Positions 17,597-40,019 of a stretch of DNA of 64,000 bases are shown in pieces. Origin of the DNA: Anaerolinea sp. (lineage in GTDB: Bacteria > Chloroflexota > Anaerolineae > Anaerolineales > Villigracilaceae); contig DYID01000010.1 of assembly GCA_020723805.1 (NCBI GenBank), positions 34,852-98,851 on the forward strand, written 5' to 3'. The position numbers and the translations under genes were made by a program. The notes beneath the pieces were generated by a model. The model searched no databases. It was not told where the DNA came from and saw nothing but the letters and a program-made list of their open reading frames with translations. Each line of letters opens with the position of its first letter. The first letter of the stretch is position 1.

Positions 17597-19209
17597 GCGC
17601 GGTACACCCATTCTCCATTGACCATTGTAGCCGAGGATTGCATGGCGAGCAATTCATCTGCATGACAATCGAAGGGGTCTTTTTCGAGGACAATGAGGTC
17701 GGCGAGATGACCGGGGGCGAGCCGTCCGAGGCGGTTTTCCAGGTAGGCGGCATAGGCGGGACCGAGGGTATATGCCTCCCAGGCTTGGGCGAGGGTCAGT
17801 TTTTGTTCGGGGTGCCAGCCTTCGGCGGAGGGAGAACCGTCGGCGCGGCGGCGGGTGACGGCGGCGTGCAGTCCCCAGAAGGGATTCGGGGAGTCCACCG
17901 GCGCGTCCGATCCGAAGGCGAGCCGCGCGCCGTTGTCCAGTTGGGTGCGCCAAGCGTAGGCGTAGGGGGTGCGTTCGGGTCCCCAGTAGTCGTCCGCCAT
18001 TTTCATGTCGGAGATGGCGTGGATGGGCTGCATGGAGGCAATGACGTTCAGCGCGCCGAGGCGGGCGAGGTCATCGGGGTGCAGCACCTGGACGTGTTCG
18101 ATGCGGTGGCGCAGATGCGGCAGGCGCTGTTCGCGTTCGTAGCGGCGGAGTTGTTCGTAGGCGTCGAGCACTTCGTGGTTGGCGCGGTCGCCGATGGCAT
18201 GGACGGTCATGCCCAAGCCGAGGCTGGCGGCTTTGCGCCCGTGTTCGAAGAGTTCCTCGCCGTCGAGGTTGAGGATGCCGCGGTTGTCTTCTTCGCCGAG
18301 GTAGGGCTGGAACATGGCGGCGGTGTGCGGACCGAGGGCGCCATCCATGAAGACTTTGACGTTGCCGATGCGCAGCAGGTCATCGCCGAAGCCGCCGCGC
18401 AACCCGAGTTCGTGGGCAGGGTCGAGCAGTTCGACGGGGATGTTTTTGAGGACGCGCAGTTTGAGTTTGCCCTGGGCGTGGAGCAGTTGGAGCGCCATGA
18501 AGGCTTCGCGGCGGTCGAAGTCGTGGACGCCGGTCAGCCCCATGCGCCAGAGGATGGGCTGCGCCTGCTCGATGGCTTCTGCAATTTGCTGAAGGGTGGG
18601 AGCGGGGATGGCGTCGCCGGCGAGCGACATGGCGGTTTCGAGCAGGATGCCGGTGGGGTTGCCGTGCACGTCGCGCTGGATGTGTCCGTTGGGCGGGTCG
18701 GGGGTCTGGCTGGTGATGTTTGCCAGTTTCATGGCGGCGGTGTTGACCCAGCCGGCATGGAGCGATTTGGCGGTGAGGTAGACGGGGTTGTGCGGGGCGA
18801 TGGCGTCGAGGTCCGAAGCGTGGGGCCACCCCCCCTCCCCCCCAGCCCCTCTCCCAGCGAGAGAGGGGAGCCAGGAGTTCTGATTCCAACCGTGACCGAG
18901 GATCCATTCGCCGGGTTTGGCTTGCTTCACGCGTTCTGCCACGCGGCGCAGGCATTCCTCCAGCGTGTCGGTTTCGCAGTCCACTTTTTGCAGGCTGAGG
19001 GCGTAGTGCTGGAGGTGGATGTGGGCGTCGGTGAGACCGGGGAAGATGAAGCGCCCGCCCATGTTTTCGGGCTGGGCGCGGGTGAAGCGGTTGAAGAGTT
19101 CGTCCGTGCCGCCGACGGCAAGGATGCGGTCACGTTCGATGGCGATGGCGGTTGCGGCGGGCTGCGCCGGGTTTTGGGTGTAGATGCGGGCGTTGTAGAG
19201 AAGTCTCAT
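17593..19209 (-). CDS. YtcJ-like amidohydrolase (amidohydrolase family 3)
   Basis: Metal-dependent hydrolase of 538 residues from the YtcJ/LAF3 group. Signature segments are FPGLTDAHIHL (metal His pair), KVFMDGALGPHTA, GMTVHAIGDRANHEVLDAYE, RIEHVQV, LAFGSDAPVDSPNPF and the C-terminal PGHLADLIVLEKDPF. An unusual 13-14-residue stretch (LPSLAGRGAGGEG, about residues 111-124) is encoded by a G/C-rich palindromic insert at 18826-18880. The gene overlaps parB and the downstream kinase by four bases each. Substrates in this family are varied; none can be assigned. Confidence 0.85.
   Translation of the reverse strand: MRLLYNARIYTQNPAQPAATAIAIERDRILAVGGTDELFNRFTRAQPENMGGRFIFPGLTDAHIHLQHYALSLQKVDCETDTLEECLRRVAERVKQAKPGEWILGHGWNQNSWLPSLAGRGAGGEGGWPHASDLDAIAPHNPVYLTAKSLHAGWVNTAAMKLANITSQTPDPPNGHIQRDVHGNPTGILLETAMSLAGDAIPAPTLQQIAEAIEQAQPILWRMGLTGVHDFDRREAFMALQLLHAQGKLKLRVLKNIPVELLDPAHELGLRGGFGDDLLRIGNVKVFMDGALGPHTAAMFQPYLGEEDNRGILNLDGEELFEHGRKAASLGLGMTVHAIGDRANHEVLDAYEQLRRYEREQRLPHLRHRIEHVQVLHPDDLARLGALNVIASMQPIHAISDMKMADDYWGPERTPYAYAWRTQLDNGARLAFGSDAPVDSPNPFWGLHAAVTRRRADGSPSAEGWHPEQKLTLAQAWEAYTLGPAYAAYLENRLGRLAPGHLADLIVLEKDPFDCHADELLAMQSSATMVNGEWVYRA
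18826..18880. repeat. G/C-rich palindromic insert inside the amidohydrolase gene
   Basis: A C-run followed by CCCCTCTC (18846-18853) and its complement GAGAGGGG (18861-18868). In frame it adds about 14 residues rich in Gly, Ser and Leu. Related sequences occur at 40447-40495 (non-coding) and 47196-47238 (coding, LPSPHARGDEGEG). Confidence 0.65.
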
Positions 19210-20054
19210 GTCAATTTTCCCAGCAGGGAATCCAGTTCTTCATCGGAGTAGTAGTAGATGATGACCCTGCCGCCCTTTTTGCCGTGCTTGACGGCGACCT
19301 TCGTCCCGAGGCTGACCCGCAGACGGCGCTCGATGTCGGTCACTTCTGCGCTGGGACCTGATCGTTTGCCTAAAGGCGTTTTCTTCCCGGAATATTTTCC
19401 TGCCAGCGCCTCCGTCTGACGGACGCTCAGGTCGAGGTTGATGACTTGTTTGAGTAGGGTTTCCTGCGCCTTGGCGGAGAGGGAGAGCATGGCGCGGGCG
19501 TGTCCTTCGGTGATGCGCCCGTCCACCAGCGCCTGTTTGACGGCGGCGGAGGCGTCGAGCAGGCGCAGGGTGTTGGTCACCGCCACGCGGCTCTTGCCGA
19601 CGCGCTCGGCGATTTTTTCGTGGGAGAGTTTGAACTCTTTGGCGAGCTGCTGGTACGCTTCGGCTTCTTCGATGGGGTTGAGGTCGGCGCGCTGGACGTT
19701 TTCGATGAGCGCCAGTTCGAGCAGCTGCTGGTCGGTGGCGCTGCGAATGACGACCGGCACGGTCTTCAGCCCGGCGCTGCGCGCCGCCTGCAGGCGGCGT
19801 TCGCCGGCGATGAGGGTGTAGGCGCCATTCTTGCCCGGCGAGACGATGAGCGGCTGGATGATGCCATGCTCACGGATGGAGGCGGCGAGGCTTTCCAGTT
19901 CTTCGGGGTTGAATGTCTCGCGCGGCTGGCGCGGGTTGGGCTGGATGAGGTCGAGGGCGAGTTGTGTGACGCCGCCCGCCTCGCCGCCGGCTTTGATTTC
20001 TCCCGCCGGGATGAGGGCGTCGAGTCCTTTGCCGAGACCGGTTCGTTTTGCCAT
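19206..20054 (-). CDS. parB: Chromosome-partitioning protein ParB
   Basis: Centromere-binding CTP-dependent clamp of 282 residues. The N-terminal RGLGKG-like start (RTGLGKGLDALIP) would contact ParA. The ParB/Srx domain shows box I-type QPRETFN, the CTP-binding GERRLQAA motif and ENVQRADLNPIEEAEA, followed by the HTH (HEKIAERVGKSRVAVTNTLRLL). The C-terminal dimer domain ends at DSLLGKLT. The start at ATG 20054 follows AAGGAG; parA ends 23 bases upstream. No match to the Bacillus-type parS palindrome was seen in the window. Confidence 0.95.
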   Translation of the reverse strand: MAKRTGLGKGLDALIPAGEIKAGGEAGGVTQLALDLIQPNPRQPRETFNPEELESLAASIREHGIIQPLIVSPGKNGAYTLIAGERRLQAARSAGLKTVPVVIRSATDQQLLELALIENVQRADLNPIEEAEAYQQLAKEFKLSHEKIAERVGKSRVAVTNTLRLLDASAAVKQALVDGRITEGHARAMLSLSAKAQETLLKQVINLDLSVRQTEALAGKYSGKKTPLGKRSGPSAEVTDIERRLRVSLGTKVAVKHGKKGGRVIIYYYSDEELDSLLGKLT

Positions 20055-20077
20055 GCTTTCTCCTTCTTGCGCAGCGA

Positions 20078-20851
20078 TTATTTTACGCCGTCGCCCTTCA
20101 ATAATTCCTTTGCCAGCGCTTCGTAGGCGGCGGCGCCCACGGAGGCGGGTGCATAGGCAGAGATGGGAAGTCCGTAGGAGGGCGCCTCTGCCAGGCGGAT
20201 GCTGCGCGGCACGATGCTCTTGAAGACCAGCCCGGGGAAGTGATTGCTGACTTCCTTCACCACATCGTGGGCGAGGGTGGTGCGGGCGTCGTACATGGTC
20301 AGGATGACGCCGCGTACTTTCAGGTCCGGGAAGAGAAGCGATTGGACGCGCCCGATGGTTTGGGTGAGCTGCCCCAGTCCTTCGAGGGCGAGGTATTCGC
20401 ACTGCACCGGGACGAGTACGCCGTTTCGAGCGGCAACCAGCCCGTTGACGGTCAGGAGTCCGAGCGAGGGCGGGCAGTCAATGAGGATGTAGTCGTATTT
20501 GTGGTCGAGCGATTCGAGGGCGGTCTTGAGGCGGAATTCGCGTCCGAGTTCGTCCACCAGTTCCACTTCCGCGCCTGCCAGCGACGGGGAGGAGGGCAGG
20601 AGTGAAAGTTTCAGGCGCTCGTTGAAGAGGATGGAGGAGTGCAGTACTTCGCCGCTGATGAGCGCCTCGTAGGTACCTGCCTGCACGGTGCGTTTGTCCA
20701 CGCCGAGGCTGGAGGTGGCGTTGGCTTGCGGGTCGAGGTCCACCACGAGGACACTTTGTCCCAGTTGGGCGAGGTAGGCGGCAAGGTTGATGGCGGTGGT
20801 GGTTTTTCCCACTCCGCCTTTCTGGTTGACGAGGGTGTAGATGCGGGTCAT
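20078..20851 (-). CDS. parA: Chromosome-partitioning ATPase ParA (Soj)
   Basis: ParA-type ATPase of 257 residues that moves ParB-bound origins. The deviant Walker A KGGVGKTT is at residues 11-18, the second motif VVDLDPQANATSSLG follows, and DYILIDCPPSLG forms Walker B. It is directly upstream of parB. The start codon is fixed by the conserved MTRIYTLVNQKGG, yet the bases just before it are a 7-bp repeat array with no Shine-Dalgarno sequence (20853-20914). Confidence 0.95.
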   Translation of the reverse strand: MTRIYTLVNQKGGVGKTTTAINLAAYLAQLGQSVLVVDLDPQANATSSLGVDKRTVQAGTYEALISGEVLHSSILFNERLKLSLLPSSPSLAGAEVELVDELGREFRLKTALESLDHKYDYILIDCPPSLGLLTVNGLVAARNGVLVPVQCEYLALEGLGQLTQTIGRVQSLLFPDLKVRGVILTMYDARTTLAHDVVKEVSNHFPGLVFKSIVPRSIRLAEAPSYGLPISAYAPASVGAAAYEALAKELLKGDGVK

Positions 20852-20852
20852 T

Positions 20853-20914
20853 ACGATTTGCGATTTGCGATTTGCGATTGACGATTGCGATTGGCGATTG
20901 ACGATTTGCGATTG
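20853..20914. repeat. Heptamer array abutting the parA start codon
   Basis: Nine units of the (A/G)CGATT(T/G) family, one of them 6 bases long, run from one base upstream of the parA ATG. On the coding strand this reads as AAATCGC/CAATCGT units ending AAATCGTA-ATG. The same family abuts the start codon at 39984. Confidence 0.85.
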
Positions 20915-20945
20915 GCGGCGTTAAGAACGTCTGTTACACTAACAT

Positions 20946-21797
20946 CTATGGGATGACCACCATCATGCTTTGTTCGATTTCCAGGCGGGTCGGAATGCCC
21001 GCCAGTCCTTCGCGTTCGACGGAGTGGGAGGCGAGCAGGGTGGCAAAGCGGGTGGCTTCCCAGGGGTCGCGGGTGGTCAGGTAGCGGAAGAAAAAGGCGG
21101 CAGCGAAGATGTCGCCTGCGCCGGTGGCATCCACTTCGCGGACGGACGGCGCACGGAAACGGCGGCGGTCGCCATGCCAGTAGAGGACTGCACCTGCCGC
21201 GCCTTCGGTGACGACGAGGATTTTTGTGTGTTCCGCCATGTGTTCGATGAGCAAGTCGTCGCCGTTTACGTCTTCGCGGCTGAGCACCACGGCGTCTGCC
21301 CGCGCCAAGGCGGGTTCGGCGTTGAGCCACTGACGAGGAAAGACGCGCCCATCCGAATCCCATTGACGCATCCAGCCTTGGGGAGTGAGCCCAAGCAATG
21401 TGGGAGCAAAACCGTCCGGCAGGATGGCATCCACTTCGTCGGCGATGGGGGCGAGGTGAAGGATGGGAGCGGAGCGCCAGGCAGCCGGCACACGGTCCAG
21501 CGGGATGCGCTCTGCGCGGGCGCGTAAATATTGGATGCGTCCCGTTTCGGTGTAGAGGTTTTCGTAGGTGGTGCTGTTTTGCGATGGGATGGAGACGATG
21601 GGAATGCCGTTCAGCGGTTCGAGGGAGAGGTCTGCGCCGGCGGCGGTGACGATGCCCACTCGCAAGCCGAGGGCGCGGGCGGTCAATGCGGCATAAGCAA
21701 CCGTCCCGCCCAGGTGTGCGCCCTGAGGCGTCAGGTCGCGCGCGGCGTGACCGATGACGAGGTAATCCACGGTTTCGAGCGGAACGACGCTGGACAT
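20946..21797 (-). CDS. PfkB-family carbohydrate/nucleoside kinase
   Basis: Ribokinase-like sugar or nucleoside kinase of 283 residues. The N-terminal GHAARDLTPQGAHLGGTVAYAA corresponds to the substrate-binding GG region, and VDATGAGDIFAAAF (about residues 223-236) carries the catalytic Asp and anion hole. It begins at ATG 21797, six bases after a TATAAT, so the transcript is probably leaderless. It lies between jag and parA; no pathway neighbour tells its substrate. Confidence 0.85.
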   Translation of the reverse strand: MSSVVPLETVDYLVIGHAARDLTPQGAHLGGTVAYAALTARALGLRVGIVTAAGADLSLEPLNGIPIVSIPSQNSTTYENLYTETGRIQYLRARAERIPLDRVPAAWRSAPILHLAPIADEVDAILPDGFAPTLLGLTPQGWMRQWDSDGRVFPRQWLNAEPALARADAVVLSREDVNGDDLLIEHMAEHTKILVVTEGAAGAVLYWHGDRRRFRAPSVREVDATGAGDIFAAAFFFRYLTTRDPWEATRFATLLASHSVEREGLAGIPTRLEIEQSMMVVIP

Positions 21798-21803
21798 GAG
21801 TGA

Positions 21804-21809
21804 ATTATA
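21804..21809 (-). promoter_or_regulatory. -10 box of a probable leaderless promoter (PfkB kinase)
   Basis: TATAAT on the minus strand, six bases before the ATG at 21797, with no Shine-Dalgarno sequence between them. The -35 is weak. Confidence 0.5.
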
Positions 21810-21871
21810 CCGTGAGAAGATTTGCCGACCCGTTAAAGAGTCTTTCCTCTTTCGTCCTTCGGTGAGTGCAA

Positions 21872-21959
<88 letters not shown>

Positions 21960-22706
21960 TCAGTCTTCCTTTGGGTAGATGACCACTTTGCGGTAGGGTT
22001 CTTCGCCGGTGCTTTCGGTGGTGACGGAGGGATGGTCGCGCAGGGCAAGGTGGATGATGCGGCGTTCGGCGGAGGGCATGGGTTCGAGCGTCTGTTTGCG
22101 TTTGTTTTTGACAACCTGCTCTGCCATGCGTTTTGCCATTTGAATCAACTGCCGTTCACGGCGGCTGCGATACCCTTCCACATCTACAACGAGTTGGATG
22201 AACTGCTCCACCATCTTGCCGAGGATGAGCGAGGCAACGTATTGAAAAGCGTTGAGCGTTTCGGAGCGACGTCCAATCAACACGCTCAGGTCGTCTCCGC
22301 GCACGTCCACGTTGATGACGCGGCGGTCGGGGCGGTCGTTTTCGGCGTAGTGAGCGGAGATTTGCGCTTCCAGTCCCATCAGGTGCAGGAGTTTGGAGAC
22401 GACGGCTTCAGCCTGGTCGAGCAGGGGATCATGTTCCGGCTGGGATTCGGCTTCTCGGACGGGAGCAGGCGTCGGTTCGGACTCGGAAGCGGCTGGTGCG
22501 GTTTCGACAGCCGGTTCCTCCGCCGGGGCATTGACCGTCAGGCGGACGCGCACTTGCGTTTTTCCAAATCCGAACAAGCCGCGGCTGCCGGCATCCAGCA
22601 CTTCCACGCGGACGGCATCGGCAGTAAGACCCAGTTCGGCAAGCCCCTGTGCGATGGCTTCCTCCACGGTCGGCGCGATGATTTCCAGAGTGGTGCGTGC
22701 GTTCAT
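21960..22706 (-). CDS. jag: Jag/KhpB RNA-binding protein
   Basis: RNA-binding protein of 248 residues with the usual three parts: Jag-N domain (residues 1 to about 55, GSRGLFGFGKTQVRVRL), a Pro/Glu-rich linker, a KH domain (GDDLSVLIGRRSETLNAFQYV, about 140-160) and an R3H domain (SRRERQLIQMAKRMAEQV, ending PSAERRIIHLALRDHP). It is 10 bases downstream of yidC, the conserved arrangement. In other bacteria KhpB with KhpA affects cell elongation and small RNA binding. Confidence 0.93.
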   Translation of the reverse strand: MNARTTLEIIAPTVEEAIAQGLAELGLTADAVRVEVLDAGSRGLFGFGKTQVRVRLTVNAPAEEPAVETAPAASESEPTPAPVREAESQPEHDPLLDQAEAVVSKLLHLMGLEAQISAHYAENDRPDRRVINVDVRGDDLSVLIGRRSETLNAFQYVASLILGKMVEQFIQLVVDVEGYRSRRERQLIQMAKRMAEQVVKNKRKQTLEPMPSAERRIIHLALRDHPSVTTESTGEEPYRKVVIYPKED

Positions 22707-22716
22707 GTCCGCCTCC

Positions 22717-23460
22717 TTATTCTTTTCTCAGGCCCTTCGGCAACAGGTTGCTCCAATTGGCTTTGCCCTGCGCGGCGTATTGGACGATGCCGAGCAGGTT
22801 GCTGGTGATGAAATAGACGGACAGCCCCGAGGGGAAGGTGAGGGCGAACCAGCCAAGCATGAGCGGCATGGTGATTGCCATGGACTGCCCCATAGCGGCG
22901 CTCTGGTCGTTGGGGTTGGTGGCGGGCGGCAGGGTGAGTTTGGATTGGATGTAGGTGGTCAACGCGACGATGATGGCGAGGATGTAGTACGGCTCGGGCT
23001 GACCGAGGTTCATCCACAGGAATTTGCTGTTGAGCGGGATGAGGTTGGCTACGTCGAGGAAATTGGGGTTGATGCTCTGGGAGAGTTTGAGCAGGTCGAG
23101 CGGGGTGGCGGCAAGGGCACGGATGATGCTCTGATAGAGAGCGATGAGGATGGGGAATTGAATGAGGGTGGGCAGGCAGGAGCCGAAGGGGTTGATGCCT
23201 CTTTCGCGGTAGAGGCGCATTTGCTCCTGCGCCAGTTTTTCGCGGTCTTTGGCGTATTTTTTCTGGATTGCCTGCCATTCCTTGTCGTTTTGCAAATCCT
23301 GCATGGCTTTGGCGCCCTTCATTTGCTGGGCGTTGAGGGGCCAGGTGACGATGCGGATGAGGATGGTAAACAGGATGATGGCAACGCCAAAGTTCTGTCC
23401 GATGATGTCATAAATCCACAACAGGACGTTAATGAAGATGGAAACGAAGAGATTCCACAT
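22717..23460 (-). CDS. yidC: Membrane protein insertase YidC/Oxa1
   Basis: Integral membrane insertase of 247 residues with the five-helix core and no periplasmic domain, as in Gram-positive and Chloroflexi homologues. Landmarks are the positively charged hydrophilic-groove residue in ILIRIVTWPLNAQQMKG (Arg about 36), the cytosolic coiled coil with NPFGSCLPTLIQFPILIALY, and the C-terminal GLSVYFITSNLLGIVQY. The start is ATG 23460 after AGAGGAAC. It is 8 bases downstream of the lipoprotein gene. Confidence 0.95.
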   Translation of the reverse strand: MWNLFVSIFINVLLWIYDIIGQNFGVAIILFTILIRIVTWPLNAQQMKGAKAMQDLQNDKEWQAIQKKYAKDREKLAQEQMRLYRERGINPFGSCLPTLIQFPILIALYQSIIRALAATPLDLLKLSQSINPNFLDVANLIPLNSKFLWMNLGQPEPYYILAIIVALTTYIQSKLTLPPATNPNDQSAAMGQSMAITMPLMLGWFALTFPSGLSVYFITSNLLGIVQYAAQGKANWSNLLPKGLRKE

Positions 23461-23468
23461 GGTTCCTC

Positions 23469-24575
23469 TTATTTCTTCGCGGGGAAGGTCCATACCTGGC
23501 GGCCGTTGGAATCGAGCGCCGCGAGGTAGAAATCGGTTTCGAGCGGGGCAACCAGGATCAGGTCGCCAGCCACGACCGGGGTGGTGTAGATTTTGCCGCC
23601 CACTGTCTCGAACCACAGGGTCTTGCCGTCTTTGCCGATGGCGTAAAGATTGCCGGATTCGGTGGCGAGCAGGAGGTGGTCGTTTTGCAGGATGGCGTTG
23701 GCGGTAATGGCGCCATCGGGCTGGATGCTCCAGTTCAGTTTGCTGTTGACGGCGTCGAAGGAGTAGAAGTTGCCTTTGAGGTCGCCAAAGTAGAGGGTGC
23801 TGCCGTCGAGGACGGGAGTGCTCCAGAGCCAGTATTCGGCGTCGAGGACAGATTGGTGCGCGCCGGTTTCGGGGTTGAATCGTTCGAGTTTCGAGGCAAG
23901 CGAGCCGACGTAGAGATTGCCGTCCGGTCCGAGGGCGGGAGCGCCGGGGATGGCGGCGGCGATGTCTGCCTGCCAGGCGATGGTGTAGTCGGCAAGGTTC
24001 ACGGCATGGACACGATGGTCGAGCGAGGTGACATAAACGCGTTTGCCGTCGGTGACAGGCTGCGCCCAGAGCCGCCCGCCGAGTTCAATGGTGGCGATGG
24101 GCTGTTTTTGCGATTGACCGTCGCTCAGGTCGAGAATGTAGAGGTTGCCGTCGGCGTTGGGGGCGAAGAGTTTGTTTTCCACCACGAGCGGGGCGGCGAC
24201 CCACGCGCCGCCGGCGCCGGTGAAGGTCCATTCGATGGCGGGGTTTTTGAAGTCGCCGTTAGTGATGAGGTCGCGCGGATTGAGGGCGTAGAGGATGTGT
24301 TTGCCGCCGGCGCTGCCGACAACGATCAATCCATCGGACGTGATGACGGGGGTGGCGTAGAATTGCGCTTTGTTGTCGTCGGGGTCGGAGAAGCGCCAGA
24401 CTTCGGCGCCGTCTTTGAGGTTGACGCCGTACACGAGGGATAGGTCGGCGAGATAGGCGGTGGTTTCATCGGCGGCAAGACCAGCCCAGGTGGTGCCGCG
24501 CACGGTCCCGCCACAGGCGCTCAGGAGGAGAGCGCTGAACAGAACCAGTGTCAGCAAAAGCAGTTTCTTTCTCAT
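23469..24575 (-). CDS. PQQ-like beta-propeller lipoprotein
   Basis: Secreted lipoprotein of 368 residues. The signal peptide ends in the lipobox LLSAC-G (Cys about residue 21). Seven or so PQQ/BamB-like blades follow (VNLKDGAEVWRF, ALNPRDLI, AVNLADYTIAWQ, IGKDGKTLWFETVGGKIYTTP, ALDSNGRQVWTFP). It is inserted between yidD and yidC, where most bacteria have no gene, with gaps of only 8 and 15 bases. That suggests a periplasmic-side role linked to YidC, by analogy with BamB as an assembly scaffold; this is inference. Confidence 0.85.
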   Translation of the reverse strand: MRKKLLLLTLVLFSALLLSACGGTVRGTTWAGLAADETTAYLADLSLVYGVNLKDGAEVWRFSDPDDNKAQFYATPVITSDGLIVVGSAGGKHILYALNPRDLITNGDFKNPAIEWTFTGAGGAWVAAPLVVENKLFAPNADGNLYILDLSDGQSQKQPIATIELGGRLWAQPVTDGKRVYVTSLDHRVHAVNLADYTIAWQADIAAAIPGAPALGPDGNLYVGSLASKLERFNPETGAHQSVLDAEYWLWSTPVLDGSTLYFGDLKGNFYSFDAVNSKLNWSIQPDGAITANAILQNDHLLLATESGNLYAIGKDGKTLWFETVGGKIYTTPVVAGDLILVAPLETDFYLAALDSNGRQVWTFPAKK

Positions 24576-24590
24576 TGGGATTTCGTACTC

Positions 24591-24881
24591 CTATGGAACG
24601 GGGTCGTAGCCCCCGGGGTTGAACGGGTTGCAGCGCAGGACGCGCCACGCCGCCATGAGCGAGCCTTTGATGACGCCGTATTTGTACACTGCCTGGTAAC
24701 CGTAGTGGGAGCAGGAGGGGTAGAAGCGGCAGGTGTTGGGAGGGAGTCCCTTCGAGATGGTCATCTGGTAGAGGCGGATGAGCGCCAACAGGAGGATGCG
24801 GGGAAGGTTCCAGAGAGTGCGCGGCATGTCGCGCAGACGCGGCTCGCTGGGATAGTCGTGAAGGTGAAATTCAGGATTCAT
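24591..24881 (-). CDS. yidD: Membrane protein insertion efficiency factor YidD
   Basis: Small membrane-associated factor of up to 96 residues that assists YidC-dependent insertion. The family core is complete: [28 protein letters not shown] with the three conserved Cys, then [20 protein letters not shown]. The start at ATG 24881 overlaps the end of rnpA by 11 bases; an internal ATG at 24827 (MPRTLWN) is an alternative, giving 78 residues. Confidence 0.93.
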
Positions 24882-25221
24882 GCGGCGGGGTGAGGAGTTT
24901 GGCGCGCTGGAAGAGGTCGAGCAAAGCCTGGCGGGTTTCTTCGAAGGAGGCGCGGGCAAGGCTGGGGCGGGCAATCAGGATCAGGTCGAAGTTCGAGGCG
25001 AGATGGGGGATGAGGCTGCGTGCCGCTTCCCGCAGGAGTCGTTTTGCCCGGTTGCGATGGACGGCTGTGCCGATGGTCTTGCCGGCGGCGATGCCCACAC
25101 GCAGGCGGGGTTGTTCGCTTTTTTGCACCATCAACACAACAAGCGGGTGGGCATAAGACTTGCCGGAACGCCGCACCCGCTTGAAATCTTCGGACCGGGT
25201 CAGACGAAACCTTCTCTGCAC
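24871..25221 (-). CDS. rnpA: Ribonuclease P protein component
   Basis: Protein subunit of RNase P (116 residues), which binds the catalytic RNA and pre-tRNA leader. Seen are the N-terminal [20 protein letters not shown] and the RNR motif in [17 protein letters not shown] (about residues 53-69). Start codon GTG 25221, 21 bases after rpmH. Conserved rpmH-rnpA-yidD order. Confidence 0.95.
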
Positions 25222-25242
25222 CCGCGACTCGTTTACGCTGTT

Positions 25243-25413
25243 TTACCAGCGAACCTTTTTGACGTGTTCGTTGGCAGTGACTGTCAATTTGTGACGCCCG
25301 CGCAGGCGGCGGCGTTTGAGGACGGCGCGCCCATCGGCAGTGGACATGCGTTTGCGGAAGCCGTGTACGCGCACGCGGCGGCGGATTTTGGGTTGATACG
25401 TTCGTTTTGGCAT
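25243..25413 (-). CDS. rpmH: 50S ribosomal protein L34
   Basis: Ribosomal protein L34 of 56 residues, highly basic, beginning [19 protein letters not shown] and containing the conserved [20 protein letters not shown]. Start ATG 25411-25413 after GAGGAAG. It is preceded by a strong promoter at 25477-25506. In most bacteria dnaA lies upstream in divergent orientation; here a TrkA-type gene does. Confidence 0.97.
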
Positions 25414-25476
25414 TCTATCTTCCTCATCTCAAAATAATTGCTGCGGTGTGATGCCCGCTTCATTGCAAGGCACGAC

Positions 25477-25506
25477 ATTATACCGTAGGGGTTTCGATTC
25501 GGTCAA
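25477..25506 (-). promoter_or_regulatory. Sigma70 promoter of the rpmH-rnpA-yidD-yidC-jag operon
   Basis: -35 TTGACC (25506-25501), 18-base spacer, -10 TATAAT (25482-25477) on the minus strand, 63 bases before the rpmH start. The -35 is two bases beyond the stop of the TrkA gene. Confidence 0.8.
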
Positions 25507-25507
25507 T

Positions 25508-26212
25508 TCAAGACTCGGTCGGATTCTTGCCGTTTCGGACGGGGTACACCGGAAAAGCAAGCAGGTCGGCGAGGCGCTTCACGCCCTCCGGGCTGGCAAC
25601 GGCGATGATTTCGTCGTTTTCGCGCAGGGTGCTGTCGCCGCGCGGCAGGGTCATAACGCCGTCGCGGATGATGGCGGCGATGACACAGTGCTCTGCCAGG
25701 TCCATGTTTTTGAGGGGGATGCCAATGGCTTTAGCGCCGGCGGGTACTTTTTCCTCCACCACGGAGTAACGTCCGCGGCGGATTTTGAAGAGGGTCATCA
25801 TGTCGCCCAGCGACATTTCTTCCTGGATGAGGTGCGCCAGTACGTCGGCGGCGTTGAGCGCCACGTCCACTTTGAATTTGTCGTTGAACAGCCAGGCGTT
25901 ATTGGGATTGTTGACGCGGGCGATGGTGCGCGGAACTTCGAACATGGTTTTGGCGATATAGCAGATTGCCAGGTTGAGCGCATCTTCATTGGTGACTGCG
26001 GCAATCACGTGCGCCTCACGCGCGCCCGCCGCTTCCAGCACGCTGGGGTTGACCGGCTGACCTTCGTAAATCACTTCGGTGGGAAGTTCCTGGTGCAGGT
26101 GCGAGAGCAGTTCGCGGCGGTTTTCCACCAGGCGCACCTTGTAATTCTGGTTAATCAACAAGTTAGCAAGACGCGCGCCGGTGCGTCCACCGCCGGTAAT
26201 GAGTACGAACAT
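25508..26212 (-). CDS. TrkA/RCK family potassium channel regulator, second copy
   Basis: Cytosolic nucleotide-binding regulator of 234 residues: Rossmann RCK_N domain with GGGRTGARLANLL (residues 7-19) and acidic ribose-binding residue in VRLVENRRE, then an RCK_C domain (about 140-220, IPLKNMDLAEHCVIAAIIR). It ends in a short odd tail, VYPVRNGKNPTES, that looks added by a small palindromic sequence at the gene end. It follows the other TrkA gene by one base (TAACATG). Confidence 0.88.
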   Translation of the reverse strand: MFVLITGGGRTGARLANLLINQNYKVRLVENRRELLSHLHQELPTEVIYEGQPVNPSVLEAAGAREAHVIAAVTNEDALNLAICYIAKTMFEVPRTIARVNNPNNAWLFNDKFKVDVALNAADVLAHLIQEEMSLGDMMTLFKIRRGRYSVVEEKVPAGAKAIGIPLKNMDLAEHCVIAAIIRDGVMTLPRGDSTLRENDEIIAVASPEGVKRLADLLAFPVYPVRNGKNPTES

Positions 26213-37098: not shown

Positions 37099-37466
37099 AA
37101 TCGCGCGAGTATTATGCCGGCGTGCAGAAGGCAATTCTTGCCGCGCCGCATGTCATTCAGACGCGCATCTCCTTCGATGAAATCTCGGAGGAAGAGTGTT
37201 ACATCAAAGGAGAAATCACGCTCAATGGCGGATATGAATTGCATGTCGCCGAATATGTCGTCACAGAGCCGGAGTTCAAGAGGCTGAAATACCGCTTTCA
37301 CCTTCAAAAGCCCGATGGACGGCTGATTGTCAGGTGGGATAACTCGCCGCATCATCCCGAAGTCAAAACGCATCCCGATCATGTCCATGTTGAGGGAAAG
37401 GTCATGGCATCACACCCAATGGATATTCCACAAGCGCTGGATGCCATCCTGCTATTCATCGAGTGA
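37056..37466 (+). CDS. TumE-family (DUF6516) toxin-like protein
   Basis: A 136-residue member of the TumE family. The diagnostic C-terminal block is present: LKYRFHLQKPDGRLIVRWDN followed by SPHHPEV, HPDHVHVEG and the DIPQALDAI helix. Start chosen at ATG 37056, with GGAG seven bases upstream, which gives a 43-base overlap with the antitoxin gene. The 3' end overlaps the convergent YYY gene by 11 bases. The module is an island on the plus strand between glycan genes. Confidence 0.75.
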   Translation: MARAVRDSFGGLHLKSREYYAGVQKAILAAPHVIQTRISFDEISEEECYIKGEITLNGGYELHVAEYVVTEPEFKRLKYRFHLQKPDGRLIVRWDNSPHHPEVKTHPDHVHVEGKVMASHPMDIPQALDAILLFIE

Positions 37467-39984
37467 GTCCTGCCGGCGATGGCACTTCGTAAATGGTGAC
37501 GCTTCCCTGTTGGAAGACGCGCCCGAGGAAATTGTTGAATTTCTCTTCGTTGACGCGGTAGGAATTGCGCTCGAGATTGCCGACAACCACATAACGGACG
37601 TTGTATTGCCGAAGGAGAGTTTGGGTGGTTTGCCAGTCGGGGGTGGTGTAGAGGGTTTCGATGTCACTCGTGCGCTGGGCAAGGATGCCCTGAAAATCGG
37701 TGCCGCGCCATTGACCTTCGTGGTTGCCCCAGCCCAGGATGGTGGGGCGTCCGCTGTAGATGGAGATGCGTCCCACGCTGGAATAGGGATTGCCCGTCGC
37801 TTCGAGGATGACTCCATCCGGCGCGGACTTCAGCCAGAGGATGGCGGCGGCTTCGTCGGGGTTTTCGCGCTGGAGGCGGTCAAAGTCGTCGAGGGTGAAG
37901 CCGAAGGGCGGCTGGAAGTTGTTCGCCTTGTTCGGGAATCCCAGCACGGGGTAGGTCAGCCCGACAAGGAGGACGAGGGCGATGACGACGTTGAACACGG
38001 CATTCGCTGCGCCGCGCAAATTCTTCAGCAGGACAGCCGTCCCGTAGGATGCGGCGATGCTGAGCAAAATCCATGCCTGATAATAGAACTTGAAGACGGT
38101 GTTGATGCGGTAGCCGAAGTTGTCCTGAAGGTAGAGGAAATCGGGACCGAGGATGAGGAGGGCGCCGAGGGTGGTGAGGAGGAGAATGAAAGAGGAAAGA
38201 GGAAAGGGGGAGGTGGAAAGTGGGGAGTGGGAAGTGGGGAGTGGGGAGTGGTTGGTGGTCGAGAATAAAAATGCCAGGGCGGGAAGCAAAAGCCCAAGCA
38301 GGGTGAGCAGGCTTCCGATGTGGTAGAGGCGGCGCGTGAAACTGTCGGCGAGGAAGGTGGCGGCGTCGCGTTCCTGTCCCTGCAGGATGGGCAGGACGAG
38401 TTCCGGGCGCAGGCGGTAGGCGAGAAATCCCATCGCCAGCATGGTGAGGAGGAGCAGGATAACGATGCCCAGCGAGGCGGCAATCCCCTTGCCCCAGGCG
38501 GCGGGTGTGTTGGTACGCCAAAGATAAATGAGCCACGCAAAGAGCGGGACGAACAGCGTACCCCACATCACCCACAGATGCGCGCCGCGCGTGACGTACA
38601 TGAAGTTCGGCACGATGCCGCCCGCCTGCGAGTCGAAGCCGATGAAGAAGGGCAGATAGAGAACGTAGGCGGTGACGAGGAGGGGGACGCCGAACAGCAG
38701 GACATCCTCGATTCTTTCCCAGCCCCAGCCTGCTTCCCGCACCCGAGCCAGCGCATAACTGAAAACGACCACCGCCGCGACGGGCAGGATGTCCCAGGTG
38801 TTGAGGAACGCCATGCCGCCCAGCAGAAACGCCGCCAGCAGGAAGCCGGTCCTGCTGAGATGCAGTTCGCCGAAGTATAAGTTCATCCGTCCGCGGAAGC
38901 CGCCGAGGAACAAGTTCAACGCAAAGGCGATTGCCAGCAGAAAAAAGGGAATGGACAGCACATGCGGATGCAGGTCGCCGAGCAGGAAGGAGAAGGCGGG
39001 GAACTCGTCAATGGCTTCGCGGAAGATGCCGTTGAGGTCGTAGTCCTGCACCACGCGGGAGGCGCGCCACCACCACCAGAAACGGTCGGGTGTCCATTGC
39101 GGAACCGTCGGCGGGGGATTGCGCAGTTCGGGGATGTCGAGCCAGGTCCAGAAGTTGGAGCCGTCGCGCCAGAAGAGTCCGCGTGCGTGGAGGACTTCGA
39201 GGAAGCCTTCGACGTTGGAGATGAGGAGGAGGAAAAGAGGGGCGAGGAGAGGAAAGAGGAAAGAGGAAGGAGATTTTGGATTTTGGATTTCCGATTTTAG
39301 ATTTTGGATTTCGGATTGGGGATTGGTAAGTGGTAAGTGGTAATTCTTTAGAAGATTGTAAAGGATGCCATAGGCGCCGAGGGCGGCGAGACCGAAGATC
39401 AACGCCAGCATGAGGTTGAACGCTGCCGTTGCCGGGACGCCGGTGAATTTCGCCAGCATGGCGGTCATCACATAGCCGAAGTAGTAGTAGGAGATGGCGT
39501 ATCCCGAAAGCCACAGGTCGCGCGGAGGGAACGCCGGCGAGTTCATGATGCCGTTGATGAACATCAATTCCATCGGTTTTTCGGTGCCGAGGATTTCGGG
39601 GTTTGCCGCGCGGAAGAACGCCATGAAGCCGAAGGCGGCGAGGAAGAGGAGCTCGGCGGTGAGGAGTAGGGGGGTGTTGGTTTTGAGCCAGGCGGTGAGT
39701 TCAAGAATTGGTAATTGGTAATTGGGTAATTGGTAATTAGCGAGAAATGCCCAGGCGCTCAAGGCGATGAGGATTGCCAACGCCAGAAGAAGTCCGCCCA
39801 GGTCGTTTTGGGCGATGCCGAGGCTGGCAGAAAGCCAGAAGAGGTATCCCCCCAGCATCAAGCCGAGGGCGCGGGCGAGGGTGTAGCCGCGGTCTGCCAG
39901 CGACGGGAAGAGACGGTACGCCAGCGGGAAGGTGAGCCAGCCAAGCAGGGTGATGAGGAGGTACCAGGAGAGGAAGGAAGACAT
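37456..39984 (-). CDS. YYY-domain (DUF2298) membrane protein
   Basis: Very hydrophobic protein of 842 residues with some fifteen transmembrane helices. The naming tri-tyrosine lies in LSGYAISYYYFGYVM, and EFPAFSFLLGDLHPHVLSIP is the second conserved block; both align with the C-terminal half of the 1623-residue protein at 40505. The C-terminal soluble region has IYSGRPTILGWGNHEGQWRG. Three heptamer arrays lie inside (38188, 39251, 39706), encoding segments such as NYQLPNYQLP. A fourth touches the start codon, which has no Shine-Dalgarno. Probably a membrane glycosyltransferase or lipid-sugar handling protein. Confidence 0.8.
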   Translation of the reverse strand: MSSFLSWYLLITLLGWLTFPLAYRLFPSLADRGYTLARALGLMLGGYLFWLSASLGIAQNDLGGLLLALAILIALSAWAFLANYQLPNYQLPILELTAWLKTNTPLLLTAELLFLAAFGFMAFFRAANPEILGTEKPMELMFINGIMNSPAFPPRDLWLSGYAISYYYFGYVMTAMLAKFTGVPATAAFNLMLALIFGLAALGAYGILYNLLKNYHLPLTNPQSEIQNLKSEIQNPKSPSSFLFPLLAPLFLLLISNVEGFLEVLHARGLFWRDGSNFWTWLDIPELRNPPPTVPQWTPDRFWWWWRASRVVQDYDLNGIFREAIDEFPAFSFLLGDLHPHVLSIPFFLLAIAFALNLFLGGFRGRMNLYFGELHLSRTGFLLAAFLLGGMAFLNTWDILPVAAVVVFSYALARVREAGWGWERIEDVLLFGVPLLVTAYVLYLPFFIGFDSQAGGIVPNFMYVTRGAHLWVMWGTLFVPLFAWLIYLWRTNTPAAWGKGIAASLGIVILLLLTMLAMGFLAYRLRPELVLPILQGQERDAATFLADSFTRRLYHIGSLLTLLGLLLPALAFLFSTTNHSPLPTSHSPLSTSPFPLSSFILLLTTLGALLILGPDFLYLQDNFGYRINTVFKFYYQAWILLSIAASYGTAVLLKNLRGAANAVFNVVIALVLLVGLTYPVLGFPNKANNFQPPFGFTLDDFDRLQRENPDEAAAILWLKSAPDGVILEATGNPYSSVGRISIYSGRPTILGWGNHEGQWRGTDFQGILAQRTSDIETLYTTPDWQTTQTLLRQYNVRYVVVGNLERNSYRVNEEKFNNFLGRVFQQGSVTIYEVPSPAGLTR
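38188..38257. repeat. Heptamer array inside the YYY gene
   Basis: Ten units in phase: GAAAGAG, GAAAGAG, GAAAGGG, GGAGGTG, GAAAGTG, GGGAGTG, GGAAGTG, GGGAGTG, GGGAGTG, GTTGGTG. Encodes a Ser/Pro/Leu/Thr-rich segment with 7-residue period. Its first part matches the array at 21872. Confidence 0.85.
39251..39341. repeat. Mosaic heptamer array inside the YYY gene
   Basis: Thirteen units without a phase break that pass through four families: GGAAAGA x2, GGAAGGA, GATTTTG x2, GATTTCC, GATTTTA, GATTTTG, GATTTCG, GATTGGG, GATTGGT, AAGTGGT x2. On the coding strand it yields NPQSEIQ-NLKSEIQ-NPKSPSS, a 7-residue repeat. Confidence 0.9.
39706..39741. repeat. Heptamer array inside the YYY gene, N-terminal part
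   Basis: AATTGGT x2, one 8-base unit AATTGGGT, AATTGGT, AATTAGC. Encodes NYQLPNYQLP; the extra base is tolerated because the total length keeps the frame. Confidence 0.85.
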
Positions 39985-40019
39985 TCGATTTACGATTTGC
40001 GATTTACGATTTTAGATTG
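39985..40019. repeat. Heptamer array abutting the YYY start codon
   Basis: TCGATTT, ACGATTT, GCGATTT, ACGATTT, TAGATTG. On the coding strand the array ends AAATCGA directly before ATG 39984, as at parA. No ribosome-binding site is present. Confidence 0.85.

Follow-up and report, generated by a model that had tools for sequence, protein, structure and literature searches.

On the minus strand of the window (the whole stretch of 64,000 nucleotides that was analysed), parA (20078..20851; 257 aa, Pfam AAA_31 with E 7e-58) is followed on its 3' side by parB (19206..20054; Pfam ParB_N, HTH_ParB and ParB_C), while a pfkB-family kinase gene (20946..21797) and, further upstream, jag (21960-22706) lie 5' of it in the same direction. 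The parA ATG (20851-20849) is the earliest ATG, GTG or TTG in the open frame, and homologues align from the same residue. The gap between pfkB and parA measures 94 bp, 62 of which are taken up by heptamer units. These form an array of the AAATCGY family (20853..20914, minus strand), delimited by the sequence itself, by TRF and by a comparison of 109 genomes. Read on the coding strand, its nine units are CAATCGC, AAATCGT, CAATCGC, CAATCG (the one unit of 6 nt), CAATCGT, CAATCGC, AAATCGC, AAATCGC and AAATCGT, followed by a single-base spacer, A (20852), and then by the ATG; the last AATC lies 3 nt 5' of the start codon. TRF placed the array at 20854-20917, with a score of 79 at period 7 and of 100 at period 21. 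The coordinates, the count of nine units and the end one base before the ATG, as given in an earlier note on this DNA, were confirmed by the sequence and by TRF. The same note had described parA as devoid of a Shine-Dalgarno (SD) sequence, and indeed no SD-like word, defined here as AGGA, GGAG, GAGG or AGGT at -17..-4, is present in that interval. An Rfam scan of 18000-26000 returned no riboswitch or other known RNA at gathering scores, and an RNA of this kind was therefore rejected as the parA leader.

A second array of the AAATCGY family in the window (39986..40012, minus strand) abuts the start of the gene at 37456-39984, which encodes a DUF2298 membrane protein; here the last AATC is found 2 nt 5' of the ATG. 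Within the same reading frame, three further heptamer arrays run in frame (39706-39738, 39248-39343 and 38188-38258). In-frame heptamer arrays inside long ORFs appear as low-complexity stretches (e.g., NYQLPNYQLP, SEIQNLKSEIQNPKS), and another was observed in the ORF at L123 8257-11886, which we take to resemble an ABC transporter gene. An array of a different family, GAAAGTA, with approximately eight units (21898-21956), sits 3 nt past the stop codon of jag and is mostly absent from the aligned stretch of G017.

Heptamer arrays across the genome

The window contains 12 exact lag-7 runs with a length of 10 or more, compared with 0.05 on average in 20 first-order Markov sequences. Over 444 kb of the same genome, 67 period-7 arrays were counted, versus none in one first-order Markov random set. 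Lags of 14, 21, 28 and 35 yielded 57, 37, 21 and 13 arrays, and the other lags from 2 to 34 yielded 0-7 each, except for 11 at lag 24. As both the lag-7 runs and the period-7 arrays far exceed those of random sequence, the array at parA cannot be attributed to chance. Several heptamer families were recognized in the window and the sampled genome, including AAATCGY, AATTACC, GAAAGTA and ACTGATC.

A 141-base query containing the parA array retrieved 41 matches in its own genome (including itself and one to the coding part), and a 72-base query found matches in 14 of 18 genomes of the window's own genus, g1 (g1, g3, g7, g8 and g9 are genus labels), at E <= 1e-6. An element specific to parA was thus rejected, the array family being genome-wide, and the impression that the array is peculiar to parA was not borne out, as other genes carry a like leader. 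For a closer description, 806 kb from the window's genome and seven g1 relatives were taken around array matches. The AATC family, comprising any period-7 array with AATC in its consensus (a few of which, such as AGTAATC, are possibly unrelated), was intergenic in 79 of 96 cases in this sample. The arrays were picked by similarity to that of parA, so their frequency is not a genome-wide one; their orientation and distance to genes were not selected for.

Composite arrays were found in L123, L168, L174 and L175 and on the minus strand of the window near 40000. In all five places printed, two of them orthologous, AATTACC units lie on the 5' side and AAATCGC units on the 3' side within 90 bp, and some of these arrays contain intermediate units between the two. 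A gradient of unit quality by position within AATC arrays was weak and is set aside here. At one and the same site, sister species were also seen to carry different families, AATTGGT or AATTACC in one and a GTCGAAG-like family in the other (L123/L185 and L161/L184), indicating that array families turn over at fixed sites.

Shine-Dalgarno use at parA among relatives

The 16S rRNA of the window organism has a normal tail in which the anti-SD is kept (GGATCACCTCCTTTCT), and an SD-like word stands at -17..-4 in 158 of 317 sampled genes, versus 12% at -37..-24. Taken together, the normal tail and this enrichment indicate that the SD system is present in the organism.

The start of parA was compared among genomes of the same family, using 110 of 117 matches (30 + 20 + 60), of which 109 were readable (L143 has N at the start; G019, G055, G061, G077, G083, G088 and G093 were left out). 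An SD was present in 84 of the 85 genomes outside g1 and g3, the sole exception being L157, and in none of the 24 inside (Fisher p 3e-23, although the genomes are related and the events far fewer than the counts). In G101, parA aligns at a GTG preceded by different DNA, and this start is possibly misplaced. Outside g1 and g3, the SD is usually GGAGG and parA starts with GTG, TTG or ATG; in many of these genomes, the SD-bearing DNA resembles the last codons of pfkB, and parA overlaps or nearly touches its upstream gene (as judged by resemblance to the pfkB 3' end). AAATC heptamers point at the parA ATG in 17 of the 24 g1/g3 genomes, with the last AATC at 2-4 nt from the start in 15 and at 10 nt in two. 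The earlier proposal that the array stands in the place of the ribosome-binding site (RBS) is therefore upheld by the comparison. The remaining seven genomes have other leaders, with neither array nor SD, which means that the array is not required at parA.

A second replacement was found in G000, where a gene (L137) is preceded by a flush array without SD, while its relatives L199 and L203 carry GGAG or AGGA and no array. The four best named relatives of parA are Chloroflexota MAGs. In a more distant Chloroflexota MAG outside the family (62% identity), parA is immediately preceded by an 8-nt repeat, AATTACCC (L009 1-34), and the contig begins inside this repeat array.

Orientation, spacing and accessibility at start codons

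Read 5' to 3' on the AATC strand, the 3' end of an array faces a start codon in 50 cases of the g1 sample and is flush with it (within 4 nt) in 23 of them; these represent 19 distinct genes by reading, as the pool includes orthologue pairs, and most start positions derive from a home-made codon-usage gene caller. By contrast, none of 33 reverse-oriented AATC arrays came within 4 nt of a start (p 6e-7), and other heptamer families did so in 2 of 37 facings. No flush array is accompanied by an SD (0/23); among the 12 genes with an AATC array ending 5-20 nt from the start, nine have one at -17..-4. In all 23 flush cases, 2, 3 or 4 nt separate the last AATC from the ATG (9, 11 and 3 cases, respectively), and the start codon is ATG throughout, compared with 125 of 159 SD-less genes of the window's own genome (p 0.009). 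Insertion of the array between a pre-existing SD and the ATG was rejected, since only three of the 23 flush arrays have an SD-like word just 5' of them, near the background of about 12%. A general AAATC ribosome-binding word was likewise unsupported, because AAATC is hardly enriched before genes that lack an array (of 505, 22 have it at -20..-1 and 16 at -40..-21).

The spacing was also examined without gene calls. In the 18 g1 genomes, the pattern AAATCNNAAATC-N(0..12)-ATG gave 277 raw matches and the reverse control GATTTNNGATTT-N(0..12)-ATG, which by symmetry has an equal number of opportunities, gave 128, nested matches being counted in both. For the distance tests, any row in which a repeat word came later or an ATG came earlier was dropped, which retained 111 of 144 rows from the 10 other g1 genomes with all matches listed (four of these genomes had contributed to the flush set as well). 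The last AAATC was 2, 3 and 4 nt from the ATG in 22, 21 and 22 of these (65/111), with 1-8 matches at each remaining distance. For the reverse control (50 of 53 rows kept, 44 with the same filter), the corresponding counts were 5, 4 and 4 (13/44; p 0.001). In g3, 24 of 54 rows (from 64) fell at 2-4 nt, as did 30 of 53 (from 73) in G054 (g9), G007 (g8) and G006 (g7), a trio chosen after its many matches had been seen, whereas the 12 other genomes examined gave a flat distribution (15 of 64 rows, from 73). In G054, G007 and G006, parA itself retains an SD. Relatives such as G008 and G063, unlike these three, have few AAATC leaders near an ATG. Judged from these patterns, the putative AAATC leader type is patchy across the family, and its spread could mean transfer or repeated origin.

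The mean predicted unpaired probability over -18..+12 is 0.652 for the 23 flush leaders, compared with 0.501 for SD genes (n=119; p 2e-9) and 0.499 for SD-less genes (n=120; p 7e-9); that of the parA leader alone is 0.632, and the 60-nt flush leaders, when reverse-complemented, give a mean of 0.448. An A is present at -7 and at -14 in all 23 flush leaders, at -6 and at -13 in 20 each, at -12 in nine, and at -3, the Kozak-like position, in six. In Flavobacterium johnsoniae, A at -6 and -12/-13 raises translation, and A at -6 does so in Escherichia coli too, according to the available part of the report (PMC6847099).

Origin and possible function of the arrays

The array at parA is probably, though by no means certainly, a 5' leader that would act as an SD-independent, A-rich translation-initiation region. 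The spacing lock to the ATG and the conservation between species point to such a putative working leader. On the coding strand, the array offers an A-rich stretch every 7 nt with little G and a low potential for pairing, and its last units, counted from the AUG, would bring As to about -5 to -8 and -12 to -15, close to positions at which an A is known to favour initiation in a bacterium poor in SDs. We infer that the array is transcribed and used by the ribosome: it may keep the start region single-stranded and so help the 30S subunit to bind, possibly with ribosomal protein S1 as mediator. Such a leader would represent a second way of starting translation, coexisting with the SD mode, given that the anti-SD is normal and that SDs precede half of the sampled genes. 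That about half of the sampled genes are without an SD in any case counts against the leader reading. As to its origin, the array would be one member of a polar AATC heptamer family whose 3' ends end up abutting ORF boundaries; at parA and at one further gene, such an array stands where relatives have their SD. Directional extension may halt at sequence under selection; where it removed an SD, the A-rich array could have stood in for it, and selection would then have fixed the spacing. A broader scheme can be advanced only tentatively: a polar, self-propagating heptamer may spread 3' on the G-poor strand through unconstrained DNA, overwriting SDs and supplying spacing-locked A-rich leaders for ribosome entry, so that genes would repeatedly switch their mode of initiation, with unit number perhaps setting the strength of the leader.

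A simpler history, which we regard as rather unlikely to be the whole account, is that the arrays have no function and grew neutrally, mutational extension proceeding 3' on the G-poor strand until an ATG, an SD or a stop codon was reached and overwriting SDs where this was tolerated. Stops, like starts, have arrays flush with them: the 3' end is no more than 4 nt from a stop codon in 17 of 27 cases, compared with 4 of 45 for the 5' end (p 2e-6), and this asymmetry implies an intrinsic direction. Stop-side spacing of the last AATC is mixed (8/17 at -2 and 5/17 at +3), and in eight of the 17 the final TC of an AATC is also part of the neighbouring gene's stop codon, which reads TCA on the AATC strand, as was seen in L124, L167, L188, L190, L199, L201, L202 and L214. 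Since no RBS role exists at stops, flushness alone proves no function. The constant 5' position of AATTACC in the composite arrays also fits neutral growth, as does the matching strand rule of the GGGAATC-type repeats of Xanthomonas and Nostoc, which show strand-dependent closeness to start and stop in the available portion of that report (PMC4692102); polymerase slippage has been proposed as the source of heptamer repeat growth, in work cited in the accessible text of PMC4679880 and PMC4692102. However, neutral growth predicts neither the lock at 2-4 nt from the ATG nor the absence of other start codons from the flush set, and it leaves unexplained why the AATC family alone, and not other heptamers, abuts starts. 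Given the flushness at stops, polar growth contributes to the placement of the arrays, alongside any leader function.

Slippage might instead change the number of units and hence the expression of parA, as in a phase-variation leader or in the tuning by unit number that the earlier note suggested, which seems improbable. In a comparison between species, with one genome per species, parA has nine units in the window genome; G111 and G105 each show three AATC words there, and G066 shows one. At other genes, the flush array is kept in sister-species orthologues with a unit number that differs in several, and other orthologues are without an array. Several of the differences in length between orthologues are multiples of 7, as tuning would have it, but many are not; moreover, diverged and imperfect units should reduce slippage, and the genes with flush leaders resemble varied housekeeping genes, not surface genes, as judged by their N-termini. 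Least credible, and in our view very improbable, is that the array is upstream DNA (a promoter or a repeat-binding site) and that transcription begins at the ATG. The lack of an SD, the ATG start and the array directly upstream would all suit a leaderless mRNA, and leaderless genes do occur in bacteria, as described in the available part of PMC3160421. Against this, no sigma-70-like promoter was found in 20800-22000 in a search of that type only, the heptamer holds no TATAAT-like hexamer, and parA follows a co-directional gene at 94 bp, a distance that in many relatives shrinks to almost nothing or to an overlap with the gene upstream. The putative A-rich leader, placed in part by polar growth, is the reading that we favour. 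On this reading, the parA orthologues would be a natural series showing how a chromosome-partition gene had its SD exchanged for a tandem-repeat leader, and the positional rule, with the last AATC 2-4 nt before the AUG, is directly testable with reporters. The same reading would connect translation initiation with an old puzzle, the preference of many bacterial genomes for heptamers among tandem repeats, and it suggests that a basic signal can come to be carried by a repeat array.

No description of the AAATCGY heptamer family was found among the titles and abstract openings listed in searches of open-access literature. The closest precedent is that of the TAACTGA heptamer direct repeats of Beggiatoaceae, some Cyanobacteria and Bacteroidetes (MacGregor 2015, PMC4679880). 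In the accessible part of that study, these repeats are mostly intergenic and oriented toward start codons, the largest class ending 1 nt upstream; they overlap the place of the RBS, 132 of 170 sets are without an RBS, the genes are varied and include essential ones, and a translational role was proposed. Similarly, the AATC arrays are tandem, 7-nt, mainly intergenic and start-oriented, and end within a few nt of a start without an SD. They differ in their units (AAATCGY and relatives, imperfect, nine at parA) and in the phylum, and our analyses add the SD-to-array exchange across genomes, the spacing lock, the control of accessibility on the reverse strand and the flushness at stops to what the consulted portions of that study describe.

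Other systems share single traits with the present arrays. The survey of 7-nt long simple sequence repeats by Mrazek et al. (2007), as cited in the available text of PMC4679880 and PMC4692102, likewise reports an excess of heptamers over other periods; it is a general survey, and these citing papers attribute to it no rule of placement at start codons. The SD-independent initiation of Bacteroidetes likewise involves A-rich, weakly structured leaders, and the anti-SD is retained there too. As at -6 and -12/-13 are helpful in that system; the flush AATC leaders mostly have an A at -6 and -13, fewer than half have one at -12, and only a minority at -3. In the available part of PMC6847099, such initiation is phylum-wide and is not described as involving tandem repeats. 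The GGGAATC and GGGGA(C/T)T heptamers of Xanthomonas and Nostoc are, like AAATCGY, genome-wide and intergenic, with a closeness to start and stop that depends on the strand (PMC4692102, in its accessible portion). They are G-rich quadruplex formers, whereas AAATCGY has no G-run, and replacement of the RBS was not found described in that portion. By one reading of the same portion, it is again the G-poor strand that points toward the ORF, as it does here. A strand polarity common to unrelated heptamers, insofar as these partial accounts allow the comparison, hints at a common mechanism of growth.
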